Shown one piece after another: positions 21,661 through 31,233 of a DNA stretch of 36,059 nucleotides. The notes beneath the pieces are model-generated. The model was not told the origin of the DNA, ran no database searches, and worked only from the letters and a program-made list of their open reading frames with translations. The position numbers and the translations under genes were made by a program. Origin of the DNA: a virus; the IMG/VR virus record IMGVR_UViG_3300020174_000030, positions 1-36,059 of that record; one strand, given 5' to 3'. Each line of letters opens with the position of its first letter. The stretch's first letter is position 1.

Positions 21661-24090
21661 TTAACGTGACATTGGGATACTACGATTGGCCGACTGATAC
21701 ACAGACCAGACGGACTGCTTGTTCTTGGCCAGGAACTGAAGACCCGACTGCGTATCAATTGCGCTCATGCTGGCAATGTACGGGCCATTGTAATTGATTG
21801 TTGGCGCTTGCTGGCTACTGCCCAGCATGTGATTTGGCACGATTGTGCCAGCCGTCTTGGGAACAAACAACTCCGGGCCACGCTCACCAACCATCGAAGG
21901 CACGCCAACCGGCGGGTCGCCGCCATCGGCAAAGCCAAAGATTTTGCCGACCATCCCCATGAAGCCTTTTCCACCGCTGGCCATTTCCCACAGCGCCAGG
22001 GCTTGCTTCTTCAATTCAATTTTCAGCAAGTCTTTCAGAATGCTTTCCGTTAGTTTGCTAAATGATGTTGTGCCATTTTGCACCATTTCATCAATAGCGG
22101 AAGTCATGTTGTTCCAGACAGCATCGTTTATCGATTGCAAATATTTTAATTGATCGGTTAACTGAATATTCAATATTCCGTCTTTCTTTTTGGCTTCAGC
22201 CATTGCGTTTAGAGCCGCCAAAGCTTCTGCGTTGTCTCCATATTGCTTTTGATTATTTAAAATATCTTCTTGATATTTTGCTTCCAACTCTGCCAATTTA
22301 ACCTGGCGTTCACTCCAACCAACCATTTTAATTTGGGCTTCAAGCTTGTCTTTGGATTCTAAATTAGATGTGTGAGATTTTTGATAATATTCAACATCAT
22401 CCATTAACCTTTTTAATTTGTCTTCTGCTTCTTGATCGGCAATTTTTTTGCGAGCATCGCGTTCTGCTTCTGCAGCATCAATTTCTAGATTTAATCTTTT
22501 TTGCCTAAAATCTTCTAATTTTTTCTCATATTGCTGAACTTCTAAAGCCAATTCCTCCATATAAATTTTTCGTCGCAAAACAAGATAATTTTTATCTTTT
22601 CCTTCTATATCTCTATGATATTGAACCAACAAAGCGCGACCGCGCTCATAAGATTCAATTTGAATTTTATTTTCTTCATCAGCATTTGATTTTCTATCGT
22701 CATAGTCCAAAGCATCAACAGCATCTTGAAATCTTTGTCTAAGACTTAATTCATGTTGATAGCCGCCATCGCCAGCATAAACATTTATTTTTTTCTTTTC
22801 ACCTTCTATTTTTTTGGCGTCTGCATTGGCTTTAACTAAAATTGCAATTAATTTAGCTTTTTGATCTTCCAGACGATTTAATTCATCAGCATATGCTTTG
22901 ACATTTTCATCTTTATCACCAAGAAGTGGCCGTGGTTTTGGCGCACCTCGCTCTACCATTGCATTGATACGTTCTTGAATGGTTCTAATTTGATCGGGAA
23001 CAGAATCTGGTTTGCCAAAATTCATGGCTGCATCCCAGAATTCACTCCATTTCTTTTTGGTAAAGTCTAATGCTTGATCTAAATAACCCAGTTCTGTTTT
23101 TGTCTTGTCAAAACTAGCGCGCATTAAATCAGAAGTCAATATAATTGACTCTTGCATTTTGTTTTGTCGCTCTAATGTTTCAATTTGTTTGTATTGAGCC
23201 AACGTCAAAAAGTTGTATTGATCGTTTAGTTTTTTGGCGCTGGCTGCTGAACCATCCAGTGTTGGAATAAGCTTTGCTGCAGCTTCTTTGGATGTCAGGC
23301 TACTCAATTCCGAAAATCTTTGAATAGTCTTTGACACCGAATCAAAGGTTTGATTGGTGAATTGGCCAGAGCCAATCATGGCATTCAAAATATCTTTGGC
23401 ACCGCCAATGCTTGCGCGGGAGGTGCTGCTGATGGTTTCAGCCATCACCTTAAAGCTGTCTGTCGTGACGCCAGAATACTGGCCAGTCAGGATCAATGAG
23501 TTGTTGAGCGCATCAAACTCTTTTCGACCCATGACGGCTGCAGTCGCCGCCAAACCAAGGGTTGCGGCAAATGCCACCAAAGCGCCCATTGGAGACACAA
23601 TCAACGGCGTCAGTACCCGGAACATATTGCCCAGGCCACCCATTTGATCCTTCAACTGGCCACCCTGCTGAATGGCGGCGATCATGATGCTTTGGCCAGA
23701 AGCAACCTGCGTGAAGAAGTCAGTGGTCTGGTACATCAGACCTTGTTTTTGCCATGCTGTGAGGCCACCAGCGGCCTTCAGAGAACTTGCAGCAATTCGG
23801 TCATAGGCAGCGGCCTGGGCCAGCAGTTGCATTTTGAGATCATCTGACGCCAGCCTAAATTTTCCTGTGCTGATTTCTCGCTCAATGATTTGAACCTTGG
23901 TTAAGGTTTTGCCGTAATCATCCGTAGCATTTTTTAGCGAAACAATTTCGCCGGCTGCGGCATTGCTTTCGCGTTTGATAGCCTGGCCAAGTTTGCGGTT
24001 TTCACTGATTGCCTTGTCAATCGACGCCGTAAATTCTGCCGTGTCCAACCCCAGGACTACACCCAGCCGAGCGATATTATTGGATGCCAT
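21661..24090 (-). CDS. Tail tape-measure protein
   Basis: An 809-residue protein that sets tail length and guides DNA ejection. The N-terminus (ARLGVVLGLDTAEFTASIDKAIS) and LTAWQKQGLMYQTTDFFTQVASGQS (split 112-136) match prophage tape measures. A membrane-active segment lies near 170-190 (GALVAFAATLGLAATAAVMG). Long coiled-coil sequence follows at about 330-680. The C-terminus FADGGDPPVGVPSMVGERGP, with LFVPKTAGTIVPN, is typical. About 1.5 angstrom per residue predicts a tail near 120 nm. The central third is strikingly AT-rich in DNA. AGGAAG precedes the ATG. Confidence 0.9.
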   Translation of the reverse strand: MASNNIARLGVVLGLDTAEFTASIDKAISENRKLGQAIKRESNAAAGEIVSLKNATDDYGKTLTKVQIIEREISTGKFRLASDDLKMQLLAQAAAYDRIAASSLKAAGGLTAWQKQGLMYQTTDFFTQVASGQSIMIAAIQQGGQLKDQMGGLGNMFRVLTPLIVSPMGALVAFAATLGLAATAAVMGRKEFDALNNSLILTGQYSGVTTDSFKVMAETISSTSRASIGGAKDILNAMIGSGQFTNQTFDSVSKTIQRFSELSSLTSKEAAAKLIPTLDGSAASAKKLNDQYNFLTLAQYKQIETLERQNKMQESIILTSDLMRASFDKTKTELGYLDQALDFTKKKWSEFWDAAMNFGKPDSVPDQIRTIQERINAMVERGAPKPRPLLGDKDENVKAYADELNRLEDQKAKLIAILVKANADAKKIEGEKKKINVYAGDGGYQHELSLRQRFQDAVDALDYDDRKSNADEENKIQIESYERGRALLVQYHRDIEGKDKNYLVLRRKIYMEELALEVQQYEKKLEDFRQKRLNLEIDAAEAERDARKKIADQEAEDKLKRLMDDVEYYQKSHTSNLESKDKLEAQIKMVGWSERQVKLAELEAKYQEDILNNQKQYGDNAEALAALNAMAEAKKKDGILNIQLTDQLKYLQSINDAVWNNMTSAIDEMVQNGTTSFSKLTESILKDLLKIELKKQALALWEMASGGKGFMGMVGKIFGFADGGDPPVGVPSMVGERGPELFVPKTAGTIVPNHMLGSSQQAPTINYNGPYIASMSAIDTQSGLQFLAKNKQSVWSVYQSANRSIPMSR

Positions 24091-24578
24091 TATTTCTTCC
24101 TTCGTTTGGACAGTGTCAGCGCGTAAGCTGGAATAATCTCTGCCAGTTTTCCTTTCAACACGCCAAGGACTGTTTCGGCATTGCTGTCAAGCGCCGGGCG
24201 CAAGAATGGGCGTGCAGACATTTTACTGGTTCCAAATTCATTTGCCAGAGATACCGCGCTTCGCTTGACAGAAACAACGGCAATTACTGCGTCAGTTGGG
24301 TTGACGTAACCAGATTGCTGGTCTTTTTCGTTGGGAATTCTGTAATCCGTGCGGATGGTGTCCCTCATGTGAACATGAGAAGTGTTTTTACCATCGTATG
24401 CAGCCATTGTCTTGGCGGACAGTTCGACAGGTTTCATGGCTTCATTGGCCGCTAGGGCCAAAGTGCGCCTGACCAATGTGTCGGCCCGAAACCCCTTGGC
24501 CATAGCTTTCAACTGCTCCTCAAACTCAGCAAAGCCTTCCAGCTTGATCGTCCTGTTGTTTGGGGTGTAGTCGGCCAC
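24090..24578 (-). CDS. HK97 gp10-like head-tail protein
   Basis: A 162-residue protein with the HK97-gp10 family pattern: IKLEGFAEFEEQLKAMAKGF at the N-terminus, a central VNPTDAVIAVVSVKRSAVSL, then NEFGTSKMSARPFLRPALDS, the hallmark. Family members are head-tail connector or tail-completion proteins. In most HK97-like genomes this gene lies between head closure and tail terminator; here it lies after the tail chaperones, directly ahead of the tape measure. The GTG start is one base after the upstream stop; no strong ribosome site is visible. Confidence 0.82.
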   Translation of the reverse strand: MADYTPNNRTIKLEGFAEFEEQLKAMAKGFRADTLVRRTLALAANEAMKPVELSAKTMAAYDGKNTSHVHMRDTIRTDYRIPNEKDQQSGYVNPTDAVIAVVSVKRSAVSLANEFGTSKMSARPFLRPALDSNAETVLGVLKGKLAEIIPAYALTLSKRRKK

Positions 24579-24579
24579 T

Positions 24580-25373
24580 TTATACTTTCAAATGCTCTTT
24601 CGATTCAGGTCTTGATAGCATGAACGAAAGCAATTGGTTTTGAACTTGCACTTGCTTTACCTCCTCGCTTTGAGGTGGAATAATGTATTCATGCACCGAC
24701 GGTAGCACATCTTTTATTGTATAGGGCGTCGAAGTTTGTTTGAGTTTTGAATTCAGATTACCAGTGGTCAAACAACTCAATGCCAGCAAAATTGCTTTGT
24801 TTCCAATAAAGCCATCACTCAACAAGATTTCAATGTTTCTAAAATCTTCCGAATTGATTTCATCAGGACATCCTCCATGCGCCAAGACATAAGCCCTGGC
24901 CTGTAGGTGAATGTCCTGAATTAGTTTTTTCTTGCGTCCTTGTAACCAGGCTGAATGGCCGATGAAATTGCTTCAAGCAATTCCATTTGAACCTGAGTCG
25001 GCCATTCGGCCTCAATTTCTTCGTATGTCAAATCGTCCAGGGTGCCATCAACCGGCACTAGCAATTTGACGTACTCGACAATTTTGTTTTCCATTTCGGA
25101 AACGGTGCGAATCAATTGCCGCAAAGAGCGGCCATCCACAATCACATCATCGCCCAGGCGCTCGACGCCGGCAATGTCATCTTTGAGAAAAGGCGTAGCC
25201 ATTTTGGTGTAGCGTGCCTCTGCCTTGTCTTTATCGACAATGGCCACGCGAGCCTGCATGTCATCCAATTCTTTGGACAACGGAACGCGAACTTTGAATT
25301 CATGTTCGCCAAGCGTAAAGGTTTTGATGCGGAGGGCTTTGGAGTCACCAAAAGCGGAAGTTAATTTGCTCAT
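24580..25373 (-). CDS. Tail assembly chaperone GT, frameshift product
   Basis: Reading G up to the slippery heptamer and then slipping back one base gives a 264-residue protein, G plus a 114-residue T extension. The T part begins LIQDIHLQARAYVLAHGGCP. It has no start codon with a ribosome site: the first in-frame start would be a TTG at 24885. This matches lambda gpG/gpGT (140 and 279 residues). GT is thought to bring tail-tube protein to the tape measure during assembly. The T extension carries INSEDFRNIEILLSDGFIG and a C-terminal LLSFMLSRPESKEHL. Confidence 0.82.
24883..24930 (-). promoter_or_regulatory. Programmed -1 ribosomal frameshift signal
   Basis: On the transcribed strand the G gene ends AGA AAA AAC TAA. 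The heptamer A AAA AAC (24924-24930) is one of the strongest -1 slip sites known in Escherichia coli. Five bases after it starts an 8-bp stem, CAGGACAT (24911-24918) with ATGTCTTG (24883-24890), with one G-U pair and a 20-base loop that could hold a small inner stem. The slip site lies directly before the zero-frame stop, and the -1 frame is open for 114 codons. Confidence 0.88.
24921..25373 (-). CDS. Tail assembly chaperone G
   Basis: The 150-residue zero-frame product. The sequence has LGEHEFKVRVPLSKELDDMQ near the N-terminus, central helices and a Glu-rich part (DDLTYEEIEAEWPTQVQMEL), ending GYKDARKN. This is typical of tail assembly chaperones, which are absent from the mature virion. The ATG is preceded by AGGATAAA. 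Most ribosomes should stop here; a fraction continue as GT. Confidence 0.82.
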   Translation of the reverse strand: MSKLTSAFGDSKALRIKTFTLGEHEFKVRVPLSKELDDMQARVAIVDKDKAEARYTKMATPFLKDDIAGVERLGDDVIVDGRSLRQLIRTVSEMENKIVEYVKLLVPVDGTLDDLTYEEIEAEWPTQVQMELLEAISSAIQPGYKDARKN

Positions 25374-25376
25374 GTT

Positions 25377-25604
25377 TTATCCTTTAATGATTTTGTTGTA
25401 AATTTCGTTATTCAAAGCCAGGGCGTAAGCCACCACCTGGGCCGGGGTCATGTGATGAGCATGACTTGCAGCAATTTCGTGCGCTAGTGTAACTGCGGTC
25501 ATTCGCTGCTGTGTAAAACCAAACCAGTCTTTGCGAATTTCAGACTGATTGACCAAGAAACTCAGAAGGTCACTTGTATTTTGTATTGTCGTATGTTGGG
25601 TCAT
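25377..25604 (-). CDS. Hypothetical protein, 75 aa
   Basis: The start overlaps the preceding stop as ATGA. The protein is mostly helical and includes a His-rich stretch (HEIAASHAHHMT) and an Ala-rich one (AQVVAYALALNNEIY). No family is recognised. Its position between the tail proteins and the G/GT chaperones suggests a role in tail assembly. Confidence 0.65.
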   Translation of the reverse strand: MTQHTTIQNTSDLLSFLVNQSEIRKDWFGFTQQRMTAVTLAHEIAASHAHHMTPAQVVAYALALNNEIYNKIIKG

Positions 25605-25987
25605 AAGAGGGTTAGTTGATAAAGGGTTCCATCAATTAAAGAAGCAATTTCGTCAGTGATGTTTTGAAGTTCTGAATCTTGAGGAAAACCATTTGCAACT
25701 CGCAAAGTAGCCACCTCATCTTTAAGATACAACATGTAATCCATCGGCCCTGGCGGCAGATCAAACCCGGCAACGTAGGAAATGCGATTGGCGTATTTGC
25801 CTTGGTAGGCTTCCACAAAGCCATCAATCAGGTCGCCAATGGCCGAATAGAAGGCTTCCAGCGCCTTATGTTCAGCAAAGCTTCGACTGGCCAAATGAAG
25901 CATATGAGCGCCAGTCACGCTATGCAACAAGCAAGTTGCAAATGCACTGACCGGGTTGGGCTGGGCCTGCTCTACGCTAAATTTCAT
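25601..25987 (-). CDS. Helical DUF5856-like protein, 128 aa
   Basis: An all-helical protein with MLHLASRSFAEHKALEAFYS and LIDGFVEAYQGKYANR, a ferritin-like or Dps-like pattern found in DUF5856 phage proteins. Those proteins are known from T4-like and aquatic phages without a proven role. Metal-binding positions (His, Glu) are partly kept. ATGA overlaps join it to both neighbours. The family assignment is by memory of the pattern and should be checked. Confidence 0.6.
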   Translation of the reverse strand: MKFSVEQAQPNPVSAFATCLLHSVTGAHMLHLASRSFAEHKALEAFYSAIGDLIDGFVEAYQGKYANRISYVAGFDLPPGPMDYMLYLKDEVATLRVANGFPQDSELQNITDEIASLIDGTLYQLTLL

Positions 25988-26193
25988 GGCGACTTTTTGC
26001 TGACCTTTACAGTCTGCACAATTGGGTTGTATTTGGACAACAGCCGCAACGCAACGCCTTCTGCAGAGTCTGCTTCGACTGTCAGCAATGCGCCAGCAAC
26101 CTCATTGGCATCAACTACTGAAAACCTGGCAATCAAATCCAGGTCTCCAGTAGCTGATGTCAAATCAAGCACCGCTTGATCAAGCGCAGTCAT
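25984..26193 (-). CDS. Hypothetical protein, 69 aa
   Basis: The ATG overlaps the upstream stop as TAATG; a longer in-frame reading would run into the tail-tube gene and is rejected. The protein is acidic (ALDQAVLDLTSATGDLDLIA), then EADSAEGVALRLLSKYNPIV, with a basic tail (VKVSKKSP). It has no recognised domain. It follows the second major tail gene directly, so a tail-assembly role is possible. Confidence 0.6.
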   Translation of the reverse strand: MTALDQAVLDLTSATGDLDLIARFSVVDANEVAGALLTVEADSAEGVALRLLSKYNPIVQTVKVSKKSP

Positions 26194-26711
26194 TACGTGT
26201 TGCTCCAGCCATACTGGTTGCCGCGAGGATGGATGGTAAACATGCATTTGGCCTCGGCACCAGGCTGTGCGTCAATGGTAAATTGACTGACGCGACCATT
26301 GAAAGCATAAGCAATCGTGCTAACGCCACTGACCGCTGCCACGACAAATGTTCGATCAATCACGCCGCTATAGGCATCGCCACGAATCAAAAGCAAACCG
26401 GCATCCGAAGGATTCCATGCTGCAGTGATCGTCATGGAGGTTGGTGCCGATTGCGTCGGGATTTTGTCAGACTGCCGTGACCCTGCCACACCGAAGCTGG
26501 CCACTGCGTCATCTTGGCCAAAGGCCGGCACAGCTTCGATGTTCAATGCAGTGCCAGATCCGCCAGTGCCGTTGGCGACTGTGCCGACAATTGCGGCAAC
26601 CTGAGCAGCCCAAACAGACAAGTTGGCTGTGGACAATGCAGTTGGAGCGGCTCCGGTTTGCATCCACATCGATGCGCTAAAGCCGGGTAGTACTAATGCT
26701 GGTGCTGCCAT
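26193..26711 (-). CDS. Major tail tube protein paralogue 2
   Basis: A 172-residue beta-rich protein that is a close paralogue of the upstream gene. From residue about 55 to the end, about 80 percent of residues are identical by eye, including PAFGQDDAVASF, AGSRQSDK, AWNPSDA, RGDAYSG and GRVSQFTIDAQPGAEAKC. The first 55 residues diverge and hold an Ala/Gly-rich insertion (VANGTGGSGTA). AGGAG precedes the ATG, so translation should be strong. One copy may form the tube and the other a specialised ring, or both may mix. Confidence 0.75.
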   Translation of the reverse strand: MAAPALVLPGFSASMWMQTGAAPTALSTANLSVWAAQVAAIVGTVANGTGGSGTALNIEAVPAFGQDDAVASFGVAGSRQSDKIPTQSAPTSMTITAAWNPSDAGLLLIRGDAYSGVIDRTFVVAAVSGVSTIAYAFNGRVSQFTIDAQPGAEAKCMFTIHPRGNQYGWSNT

Positions 26712-26726
26712 GATGGTTTCTCCTGA

Positions 26727-27221
26727 TTAAGCGTTGTTGCTCCACCCGTACAGATTGCCACGGGGGTGAATGGAATACATGCACTTGGCTTCTGCGCCAG
26801 GCTGGGCATCAATAGTAAATTGCGACACGCGCCCGTTAAAGGCATAGTACACAATGTTGGTGCCGTCGGTGGCAGCAATCACAAATGTGCGATCCACCGT
26901 ACCGCTGTAAGCATCGCCGCGCAGCAGCAACGTCACGGCATCCGATGGATTCCATGCGGATGTGATCGTCATCGAAGTGGGAGCAGACTGCGAAGGCAGC
27001 TTGTCAGATTGACGCGAGCCGGCAACCGTAAACGATGCCACAGCATCGTCCTGGCCAAAGGCAGGAATCGCTTCAATGTTCATCAAATTGCCCGAAATGG
27101 CGATGCCTGATGTGCTGGCCACCAAAGACAGTTGCGCCAAGGTCAAAGGCGTTGGACTGGCTGACGGTTGAGCATACATTGAGGCGCTAAAGCCGGGAAG
27201 AATTTTATTAGGCAGAGCCAT
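26727..27221 (-). CDS. Major tail tube protein paralogue 1
   Basis: A 164-residue protein starting MALPNKILPGFSASMYAQ. Its size, position after the tail completion gene and upstream of the chaperones, and a strong AAGGA site fit a major tail tube subunit. It ends SIHPRGNLYGWSNNA. The downstream paralogue shares nearly all of the C-terminal two thirds. No Ig-like decoration domain is appended to either copy. Confidence 0.75.
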   Translation of the reverse strand: MALPNKILPGFSASMYAQPSASPTPLTLAQLSLVASTSGIAISGNLMNIEAIPAFGQDDAVASFTVAGSRQSDKLPSQSAPTSMTITSAWNPSDAVTLLLRGDAYSGTVDRTFVIAATDGTNIVYYAFNGRVSQFTIDAQPGAEAKCMYSIHPRGNLYGWSNNA

Positions 27222-27255
27222 TTTTCAGTTCCTTCAAAAAGTAGTTTGGGGTGTT

Positions 27256-28778: not shown

Positions 28779-29819
28779 TTAAGTCTCAATTAGACGAACG
28801 CCAGCAAATGGATTTCGCACCGTGCTGACCATACGTTTTTCTGCGTACAGCGTAATGAACCCTGGCGTGGTTTCTTCCATCGCTTGAATGGACATTTCTT
28901 CAATGTCGGCAATAGTCATAAACTGAGGCCAGTTGGCAAGATACACAGGGAAGTTGCCTGCCGTGCCTGTTGGGTCGAGATAAGGGTTGGGGATGACAGG
29001 GAAACCCAAGATGTTAACTGCTGGGCCTTCTCCCAACTCGCCAGTTTCCAACAACGAATACCCGCTACTGCCATGCTCATATTGTCGGATTGCAGAAATG
29101 TAGGTCGGATGCATGTGCCATGCAGTTCCTGGCAAATTCCAGTATTGAGGCGGAAGAGCATTAGCCATGTCGGCCAAAGTTTCATAATCTACACTCGTGT
29201 GGGCGTGACCAACTGTGCGTAAAGTGTGCAAGCCATTCGTGATGGCTGTGCCAGACGTTCCGTAAGCTGCTGCAGACCCGCTGGTGCCGGCATAGTAGTT
29301 TAAGCCACGCAGACCGCTTGTTGCGCCTGTGGCGGTGGTTGTGCTGCCTGCTTGGTCATTGTTGTCTGCCATCGAAGCTGCTTCAATGGCGGAAAATTCC
29401 AGCATCAAGTCTTGAACAAGGGTTTCGTTCAGGTAATTGATGTCTGACATGGCTGCTGTGCGGATGGGCAATTGAGCCGTAATCACGCGAGTCGGCAATT
29501 GCCAGATCGTGGTGTTTGTTCCTGGCGTGCCACTGTCGGGAGTGAACGTGTAGCCCCAAGGATTTGTTTGGTTGGCTGCATTGCCTGTTTTTGCAACAAA
29601 CTGTGCGCTGGAGCCTGCAACTTTAACTTGCCGCGAAAACCTGCGGAATGGGTTGGCATATCGCAGTGCAGCAAAAGCGTCATCGAAATAAGTCCGACCA
29701 CCTTGACCATCGCCGCTGCCGGTCAAGCCTGCTGCTTCGCGCAAATCAATATTGACTTTGTCGCCGGTTTCCAGCGTCTGCTTAATGCCGCCCAGGATTT
29801 TTTCGGTAATGGTTTTCAT
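28779..29819 (-). CDS. Major capsid paralogue B, lacking scaffold domain
   Basis: A 346-residue HK97-fold capsid protein homologous to the gene just upstream. Shared segments include EAAGLT, GDGQGGRT, KTGNA, PIRTAA, SGLRGLN-type, ALPPQYW, and a C-terminal GFITLYAEKRMVSTVRNPFA. The homology starts at residue 28 here but at residue 105 in the upstream copy, so B has no long N-terminal delta/scaffold domain and resembles an already cleaved subunit. The ribosome site is weak (GGAAC). It may be a vertex, minor or alternative shell subunit. Confidence 0.85.
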   Translation of the reverse strand: MKTITEKILGGIKQTLETGDKVNIDLREAAGLTGSGDGQGGRTYFDDAFAALRYANPFRRFSRQVKVAGSSAQFVAKTGNAANQTNPWGYTFTPDSGTPGTNTTIWQLPTRVITAQLPIRTAAMSDINYLNETLVQDLMLEFSAIEAASMADNNDQAGSTTTATGATSGLRGLNYYAGTSGSAAAYGTSGTAITNGLHTLRTVGHAHTSVDYETLADMANALPPQYWNLPGTAWHMHPTYISAIRQYEHGSSGYSLLETGELGEGPAVNILGFPVIPNPYLDPTGTAGNFPVYLANWPQFMTIADIEEMSIQAMEETTPGFITLYAEKRMVSTVRNPFAGVRLIET

Positions 29820-29883: not shown

Positions 29884-31233
29884 TTAGTTGGCAGCAGTGG
29901 CCGTCGAACGGTAACGGATCAAAGCGTTTGGATCGCGCACGCTGGTGGCCAGACGCTTTTCGCCGTAGAACGTAATGTAGCCAGGCAAAGTCTGGTCATA
30001 CCGACGCATCACCATGTTCAAGCGATCAATGATGGTGTGACCGCGAGTCCAGTCACCGAAATACATCGGGTACTTGCTCAAGGTGGCTGCAGCAGCAGTT
30101 GTCAACTGGCTTGGGCTGTCCAAGTATTTGTTGACAACCACATCAAAACCAAGCAGTTGTCCAATAATACCGTCAACCGACAGAGAATCAACAGAGTTGA
30201 AAATCGGGCGACCATTGGTGTCCTGCAGACCGCGAATTGCTTGCAGCAGGATTGGGTTAATCATGAACTTGGTTGCTGGAGTCCAGTACTGTTGCGGCAG
30301 CGCGTAAATGGTGTTGATAACGTCTTTGTATGTGACGTTATTCAAACCAACGGTGTTGACGTTGGAGGTCAACTGGTCGTAAGTCGCCAAACTGTGCAGG
30401 CCGGTGGTGGAGCCAGTGCCAGAGGTGCCAAAAGCAGCCGCAGAGGTCGTGCCGCCTGCATAGGTGCCGTTAGCGCCAGGGTACTGATTCAAACCGCGCA
30501 GACCGTCAGCGCCACCAGTGGTCACGGATGAGCCAGTGCCAGACTGATCGTTGTTGCTGATCATGGACTGGGCTTCTGCCTGGGCAAATTCCATGAGCAT
30601 GTCATCAACAATGTTGGCTTCCAGACCATCAATGTCATCCAGAGCCGCAGTACGGATTGGGAACTGCACGTTGATGTCTTTTAGCACCAACTGCCAGATG
30701 CTGGTGTTTTCCGTGGTAGGTGAACCGTTGTTCTGGACGGCATAGCCCCACTGTGCGCCAGCGTTGCCAGTCTTGACCCGGAACTGATAGCTGGAACCGT
30801 CTGTGGCTACGGTGCGGGATATGCCTCGCAACTGATTGGCCAGACGCAGAGCCACGAACACAGGGTCGTAGCCGGTGCGACCACCTTGACCGTCACCACC
30901 AGCGGTTAGGCCGGCAGCTTCCTTCATGTAGGCGTCATACTGACCCTGATCTTCAAACATTTTCAGTTCTTTTTCACCTTGGCGAGCGCCCTTGTAATAG
31001 GTGGCCAGTTGCTCACGCACGGCGCGGTTCACATCAGTGCGGACAGACTTGGCAACCCGAATGATGGAGGGAGCCTGGACAGAAGCAATTTTGGCTTCCA
31101 GAGCGGCCATTTTGGCGTCGATATCGGCGCGAGCAGCATCAATGGCTGCAGGGATTTTGGCTTCCACGGCCAGGACAGCATCGTGCTGTTTGGCTTCAAT
31201 GGCGTCCAGTTTGTCGAGAATTACTTGAGACAT
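29884..31233 (-). CDS. Major capsid protein A, with scaffold domain
   Basis: A 449-residue HK97-fold capsid protein. Residues 1-60 form a coiled coil (DKLDAIEAKQHDAVLAVEAK and onward), the delta/scaffold domain that the prohead protease usually removes. A basic linker follows, and the shell domain starts near residue 105 (EAAGLTAGGDGQGGRT). The C-terminus PGYITFYGEKRLATSVRDPN is typical. The ATG is preceded by AAAGGT. It lies directly after the protease gene and is the best candidate for the main shell subunit. Confidence 0.9.
   Translation of the reverse strand: MSQVILDKLDAIEAKQHDAVLAVEAKIPAAIDAARADIDAKMAALEAKIASVQAPSIIRVAKSVRTDVNRAVREQLATYYKGARQGEKELKMFEDQGQYDAYMKEAAGLTAGGDGQGGRTGYDPVFVALRLANQLRGISRTVATDGSSYQFRVKTGNAGAQWGYAVQNNGSPTTENTSIWQLVLKDINVQFPIRTAALDDIDGLEANIVDDMLMEFAQAEAQSMISNNDQSGTGSSVTTGGADGLRGLNQYPGANGTYAGGTTSAAAFGTSGTGSTTGLHSLATYDQLTSNVNTVGLNNVTYKDVINTIYALPQQYWTPATKFMINPILLQAIRGLQDTNGRPIFNSVDSLSVDGIIGQLLGFDVVVNKYLDSPSQLTTAAAATLSKYPMYFGDWTRGHTIIDRLNMVMRRYDQTLPGYITFYGEKRLATSVRDPNALIRYRSTATAAN

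Follow-up and report, generated by a model that had tools for sequence, protein, structure and literature searches.

The virus record analysed here, IMGVR_UViG_3300020174_000030 (36,059 bases; hereafter, the window), encodes two adjacent tail-tube paralogues on its minus strand, termed up (upstream gene) and dn (downstream gene). With a probability of about 0.6, we propose that these proteins are two tube-subunit isoforms that share their polymerising surfaces, probably co-assemble in one tube and differ mainly in their outer display. In the usual description, known long phage tails consist of a single tube protein stacked many times. Two such proteins have long been kept by a large and almost uncultured group of freshwater phages; their stacking surfaces appear to change in step, and an outer segment stays different. 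If both isoforms occur in one tube, it would constitute a natural mixed-subunit nanotube, and single-copy relatives within the same group would offer a direct test of what the second subunit does.

The head and tail genes of the window are all read from the minus strand, in the order terminase, portal, prohead protease, two capsid genes, connectors, two tube genes, probable chaperone and tape measure (Table 1). Judged by this gene content, the phage is of the lambda type with a long tail. The tube gene pair is situated between the head-closure/terminator genes and the chaperone/tape-measure genes, which is the position expected of a siphophage major tail tube protein.

Table 1. Features of the tube gene pair and of the adjoining tail operon (positions in the window)
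Feature	Coordinates	Strand	Basis
up: tail-tube protein of 164 aa, ancestral type (counterpart of the one tube gene in single-copy relatives)	26727..27221	-	ORF; PHROG 158 major tail protein, E 1.3e-5; AlphaFold2 pLDDT 77.7; fold Z 11.6
dn: tail-tube paralogue of 172 aa, derived type, N-terminal insertion	26193..26711	-	ORF; PHROG 158, E 2.8e-4; AlphaFold2 pLDDT 70.0; lambda-type tube fold; single clade, support 100
dn paralogue-specific beta1-beta2 segment, residues 28-58	26538..26630	-	signature columns
dn 9-residue insertion, residues 41-49	26565-26591	-	inside the segment of residues 28-58
dn residues 59-100, beta2-beta3 loop plus strand beta3 (contact between rings in known tubes)	26412..26537	-	within-genome match to up; loop role from PMC8718954
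15-nt spacer separating up and dn, holding the dn Shine-Dalgarno sequence	26712..26726	-	sequence
up Shine-Dalgarno sequence AAGGA	27230..27234	-	8 nt from the up start
Tape-measure protein, 809 aa	21661..24090	-	Pfam TMP_2, E 1.1e-44
Probable tail assembly chaperone (G-like), 150 aa	24921..25373	-	slippery A AAA AAC at about 24930
GT-like frame after the chaperone	24580-24885	-	entered by a -1 shift at the slippery A AAA AAC

The up and dn proteins exhibit 68% amino acid sequence identity over 171 columns (E 4e-87). Whereas residues 59 to 172 of dn are identical to up at 92 of 114 positions (81%), residues 1 to 58 agree at 24 of the 49 aligned positions and are interrupted by a 9-residue gap, which corresponds to extra residues in dn. 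The initial annotation, made from the DNA letters, had described two tandem major tail tube paralogues at 26193-27221, with about 80 percent of residues shared at the C-terminus and a differing N-terminus. Both points were borne out: ORFs occupy these coordinates on the minus strand, and the PHROG and Pfam matches, the fold and the gene order agree with the assignment. The insertion reported as Ala/Gly-rich in the second copy also exists, but the nine inserted residues, IVGTVANGT, are not especially rich in Ala or Gly themselves; that composition belongs to the wider stretch around them, AAQVAAIVGTVANGTGGSGTA. The strong ribosome sites claimed for both genes were recovered as well, AGGAG preceding dn at 8 nt and AAGGA preceding up at the same distance, both of good quality; several genes neighbouring the pair have no Shine-Dalgarno sequence. 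A sequencing or assembly artefact was ruled out, as the pair turned up in many contigs and its copies diverge at 30% of bases even within the C-terminal part.

Profile comparison matched 37 of 41 family members to PHROG 158, "major tail protein" (best 3.6e-7), and matches to PHROG 158/584 were found across the family; Pfam Phage_tail_3 was matched weakly by 16 of 39 members (best 3.3e-5). A sequence search of the PDB yielded no relative. AlphaFold2 models, computed as monomers from family alignments shallow in diversity (mean pLDDT in Table 1), showed the tail-tube fold, with a beta sandwich, one helix and a long beta2-beta3 loop. Their best matches among solved structures were the tubes of phages YDC107 and lambda gpV (Foldseek, VIA), and the up model superimposed on the lambda-type tube fold over 134 residues. 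Residues 64-91 of dn form the inter-ring (beta2-beta3) loop in these models, and residues 19-52 the beta1-beta2 connection. The stretches of low confidence are the long beta2-beta3 loop in both copies and the insert in dn; the beta2-beta3 loop is mobile in free tube subunits (PMC8718954). These results support the notion that up and dn are tail-tube paralogues, and the best explanation for both copies, as predicted from sequence and models, is a role as tube subunit of a lambda-type long non-contractile tail.

Relatives were collected from IMG/VR and GTDB contigs. In the first two relative searches, together with the window and phage P19250A, both genes stood side by side in 90 loci and one complete gene was present in 72; a few of the loci share a contig. 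Since the same pair recurs in 90 loci, it is not due to chance. Of the 72 one-gene loci, five are truncated by the contig edge on the upstream side and another immediately downstream, which leaves about 66 single-copy loci, a status judged on contig stretches and, for P19250A only, on the whole genome. The pair is present in the window phage and in most of its sampled freshwater relatives; a search of genome contigs returned only five loci, two of them with the pair. Among 50,697 phage records, the only related phage was the Methylophilaceae phage P19250A (KX815270). This closest cultured relative has the same operon order, a tube protein 61-62% identical and two capsid genes, but a single tube gene, annotated as hypothetical. 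By analogy with P19250A, tandem-type phages probably infect a betaproteobacterium of fresh water.

A tree built from 99 representatives placed all 34 dn sequences in one clade (support 100), which persisted after the addition of four single-copy outgroup rows, and up and single-copy sequences were intermingled; the trees rest on a protein of 170 residues, and many of their forks are unresolved. The insert is missing in the single-copy outgroup rows. In the N-terminal part, the single copies resemble up (0.644) more than dn (0.498); in the C-terminal part, they are about equally near to both. The single dn clade, the missing insert in the outgroup and the nearness of the single-copy N-terminus to up all indicate that dn is, on sequence grounds, a derived paralogue with one origin in the sampled set. 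It would have been born by an old tandem duplication and would have carried its own beta1-beta2 segment with the 9-residue insertion ever since. Single-copy phages either never had dn or have lost it.

A selection test on both copies in relatives, which the initial annotation had proposed, gave pooled omega values of 0.067 for dn and 0.068 for up over pairs with moderate synonymous divergence, revealing strong purifying selection on both copies and relaxed selection on neither. The pooled omega of single-copy genes (L083-L163) was 0.18 vs 0.07 for either tandem copy; the higher value may stem from synonymous saturation in AT-rich genomes. W16, M17, N30, V33, W34, Q37 and V38 are nearly fixed in dn, as is most of the insert (I/V-G-T-x-A-N-G-T, then G50), and up carries Y16, Q30 and V37 and has no insert. 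Paralogue-specific columns account for 26 of the 58 positions in dn 1-58 vs 7 of 114 afterwards. The dn signatures, most insert positions included, occur in 85-100% of dn copies, which supports the view that the N-terminal differences are fixed paralogue signatures and not noise.

Low omega and near-fixed signatures demonstrate that dn is not a decaying copy. Furthermore, since the N-terminal signatures are fixed and both copies are maintained, simple redundancy is unlikely. The same fold and the 81% identity in the shared part would suit a redundant duplicate, retained for dosage or slowly decaying, but its omega, the presence of its signatures and most insert positions in 85-100% of dn copies, and one ancient origin kept in many lineages render this explanation highly improbable.

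The initial annotation had interpreted the divergence limited to the N-terminus as a sign of different contacts rather than simple redundancy. The fixed signatures and the maintenance of both copies agree with this reading, which, however, missed that the C-terminal likeness is also kept in step genome by genome. The same residue was found in up and dn of one genome in excess of re-paired genomes, with z 15.8 for dn 59-100 and z 12.2 for dn 131-172, and the excess was much weaker outside these two regions. As a second control, foreign partners were drawn from genomes of similar GC (54 genomes). The own partner matched better in 48 of 54 genomes both in dn 59-100 (0.940 vs 0.871, p 8e-10) and in dn 131-172 (0.801 vs 0.745, p 3e-8). 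The excess was smaller in dn 101-130 (0.695 vs 0.667), and dn 1-58 showed no significant difference between own and GC-matched foreign partners (0.478 vs 0.464, p 0.1). When the capsid paralogue pair of the same phages received the same treatment, almost no effect was observed (z 2.4 vs 13.2). The divergence confined to the N-terminus has two causes, a paralogue-specific N-terminal segment and concerted evolution of the rest within each genome.

The main rival explanation for this pattern is gene conversion, in which the C-terminal two-thirds of near-equivalent subunits would repeatedly overwrite each other, the N-terminus would escape by selection or missing homology, and no special heterotypic contact would be involved. 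It would explain why up and dn of the same genome group together in the C-terminal tree in seven genomes (L032, L035, L060, L112, L028, L139, L069) while all dn remain one clade in the N-terminal tree, and it would fit the slight synonymous excess, seen as shared third bases, in dn 101-172. However, dn 59-100, the region of strongest residue matching, shows no synonymous excess: third bases of shared fourfold codons agree at 0.341 vs 0.333 from composition. As they match only as composition predicts, recent DNA copying is not the cause there. Moreover, identical nucleotide runs between the copies reach 32 nt at most, and the fixed differences at 132 and 134 lie a few codons away from the matched sites 142-149. 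The matched sites 70, 72, 88, 93, 94, 98, 143, 145 and 149, which display many combinations that are nearly always alike in both copies, assort independently of one another, which likewise speaks against conversion. Gene conversion is, in our judgement, a serious possibility although an unlikely one.

In most solved tubes the beta2-beta3 loop provides the largest ring-to-ring contact, and its deletion leaves T5 unable to form a tube and SPP1 unable to extend one, whereas the beta1-beta2 loop contacts outer parts, namely the Ig domain in lambda and the sheath in T6SS (PMC8718954). The lock-step change of the stacking loop and the C-terminal strands, combined with an independent, fixed outer difference, favours a tube made of both isoforms. 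Both would keep the same polymerising surfaces, i.e., the beta2-beta3 inter-ring loop together with barrel and C-terminal strands. They would build one tube around one tape-measure protein, either as mixed rings or as stacked rings of either kind, and dn would contribute a different outer surface through its beta1-beta2 segment. The differing contacts would probably lie on the outer tube surface, at this segment, with the ring-to-ring contacts common to both isoforms. The data establish the pair itself, its conservation, selection on either copy, the paralogue-specific N-terminal segments and the lock-step change of the shared part; what we infer is co-assembly, the position of the variable segment on the outside, the stoichiometry and any function in adsorption or in the stiffness of the tail. 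The mixed-tube reading is weakened by the AlphaFold models, whose confidence is low precisely at the insert and at the inter-ring loop. In addition, up and dn could each follow a shared third partner and make no contact between themselves.

A stricter arrangement would be an obligate heteropolymer with a set alternation of up and dn, either inside each ring or from one ring to the next; the beta1-beta2 segments of dn would then draw a regular pattern on the tail surface, and single-copy relatives would build homomeric tubes. We hold this to be rather doubtful. Position-specific roles, with up forming the shaft and dn one or a few special rings (tip- or neck-proximal), or the reverse, would agree with two conserved types bearing fixed signatures, and even a single junction ring would require dn and up to match at the stacking loop. 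The complete absence of dn in single-copy relatives, including the cultured and complete P19250A, and the strong ribosome sites on both genes, unneeded for a protein of few copies, count against such roles, albeit not decisively. Special-ring use is improbable and, like redundancy, less likely than gene conversion.

Pairs of related tail-tube genes have been described in other phages, so two tube genes as such are not new. In Bacillus phage SPP1, gp17.1 and gp17.1* are both incorporated into the tube at about 3:1 (PMC8718954). The proposed tube would resemble this system in having isoforms with a common polymerising body and a differing outward part, outer placement and co-assembly being presumed for up and dn. 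In SPP1, however, the second isoform arises by ribosomal frameshift and carries a C-terminal FN3 domain, whereas up and dn are two complete ORFs with their own starts and Shine-Dalgarno sequences and differ at the N-terminus. Gordonia cluster DJ (FortCran gp22/gp24) and Microbacterium cluster EL (Damascus gp17/gp19/gp20) phages likewise carry at least two related genes for major tail proteins in a single tail operon, conserved within the cluster as here. In contrast to the present pair, those proteins are 43-51% identical, have C-terminal extensions, and are encoded with a further gene between the first two. Damascus was described with two tail proteins; its annotation lists three, all in PHROG 2645, and none gave a profile match to the lake-phage tube family.

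With lambda gpV the pair has in common the fold (Z about 11) and an operon logic that includes a G/GT-like frameshift. The single tube gene of lambda, however, encodes a C-terminal Ig domain, which both tube genes of the window lack. The fold matches also included the Bacteroides T6SS Hcp2-Hcp3 heterohexamer (9vne), in which tube-fold paralogues make one mixed ring; it belongs to a secretion-system tube, is remote in sequence and is likened here by fold alone. Chains A and B of Sf11 (9occ), considered as a two-protein tube, were dropped, because the corresponding paper gives one tail tube protein, gp24. Within what was searched, the novel aspects are the family, the strict adjacency of the genes, the N-terminal type of difference and the concerted change at the presumed ring-to-ring surface.

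Whether the second tube gene goes with a longer tail was also considered. The median tape-measure length is 745 aa in tandem-type loci vs 598 aa in single-copy loci, a comparison not independent of phylogeny, and the ranges are 566-669 aa in near single-copy relatives, 644-1036 aa in tandem loci and up to 807 aa in distant single-copy ones. Such a link was unsupported: the connector-gene tree shows no more than two or three independent events of gain or loss, and the distant single-copy loci L168-L173 have tape measures of 782-807 aa.

Several further observations concern the same operons. The slippery A AAA AAC directly precedes the stop of the 150-aa gene, resembling the lambda G/GT chaperone frameshift. 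A DUF5856/PHROG 858 gene ("starvation-inducible transcriptional regulator"; 25601-25987, minus strand) lies within the tail operon and occurs in some relatives only. The 162-aa gene at 24090-24578 (minus strand), or P19250A gene 12, has its match before or after the chaperone genes in relatives, as if it had moved about within the tail operon. The ORF called at 25984-26247 (minus strand) shares 55 bases with the end of dn; its likelier start is a later ATG at the dn stop codon. Finally, the two tandem HK97-fold capsid genes (28779-29819 and 29884-31233, both minus strand) encode proteins of 346 and 449 aa, 42% identical over 344 residues, and are found in tube-single and tube-double relatives alike, P19250A included. 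The 449-aa protein is extended at its N-terminus by about 100 aa; its 346-aa counterpart, which lacks this region, is perhaps a vertex or minor form.
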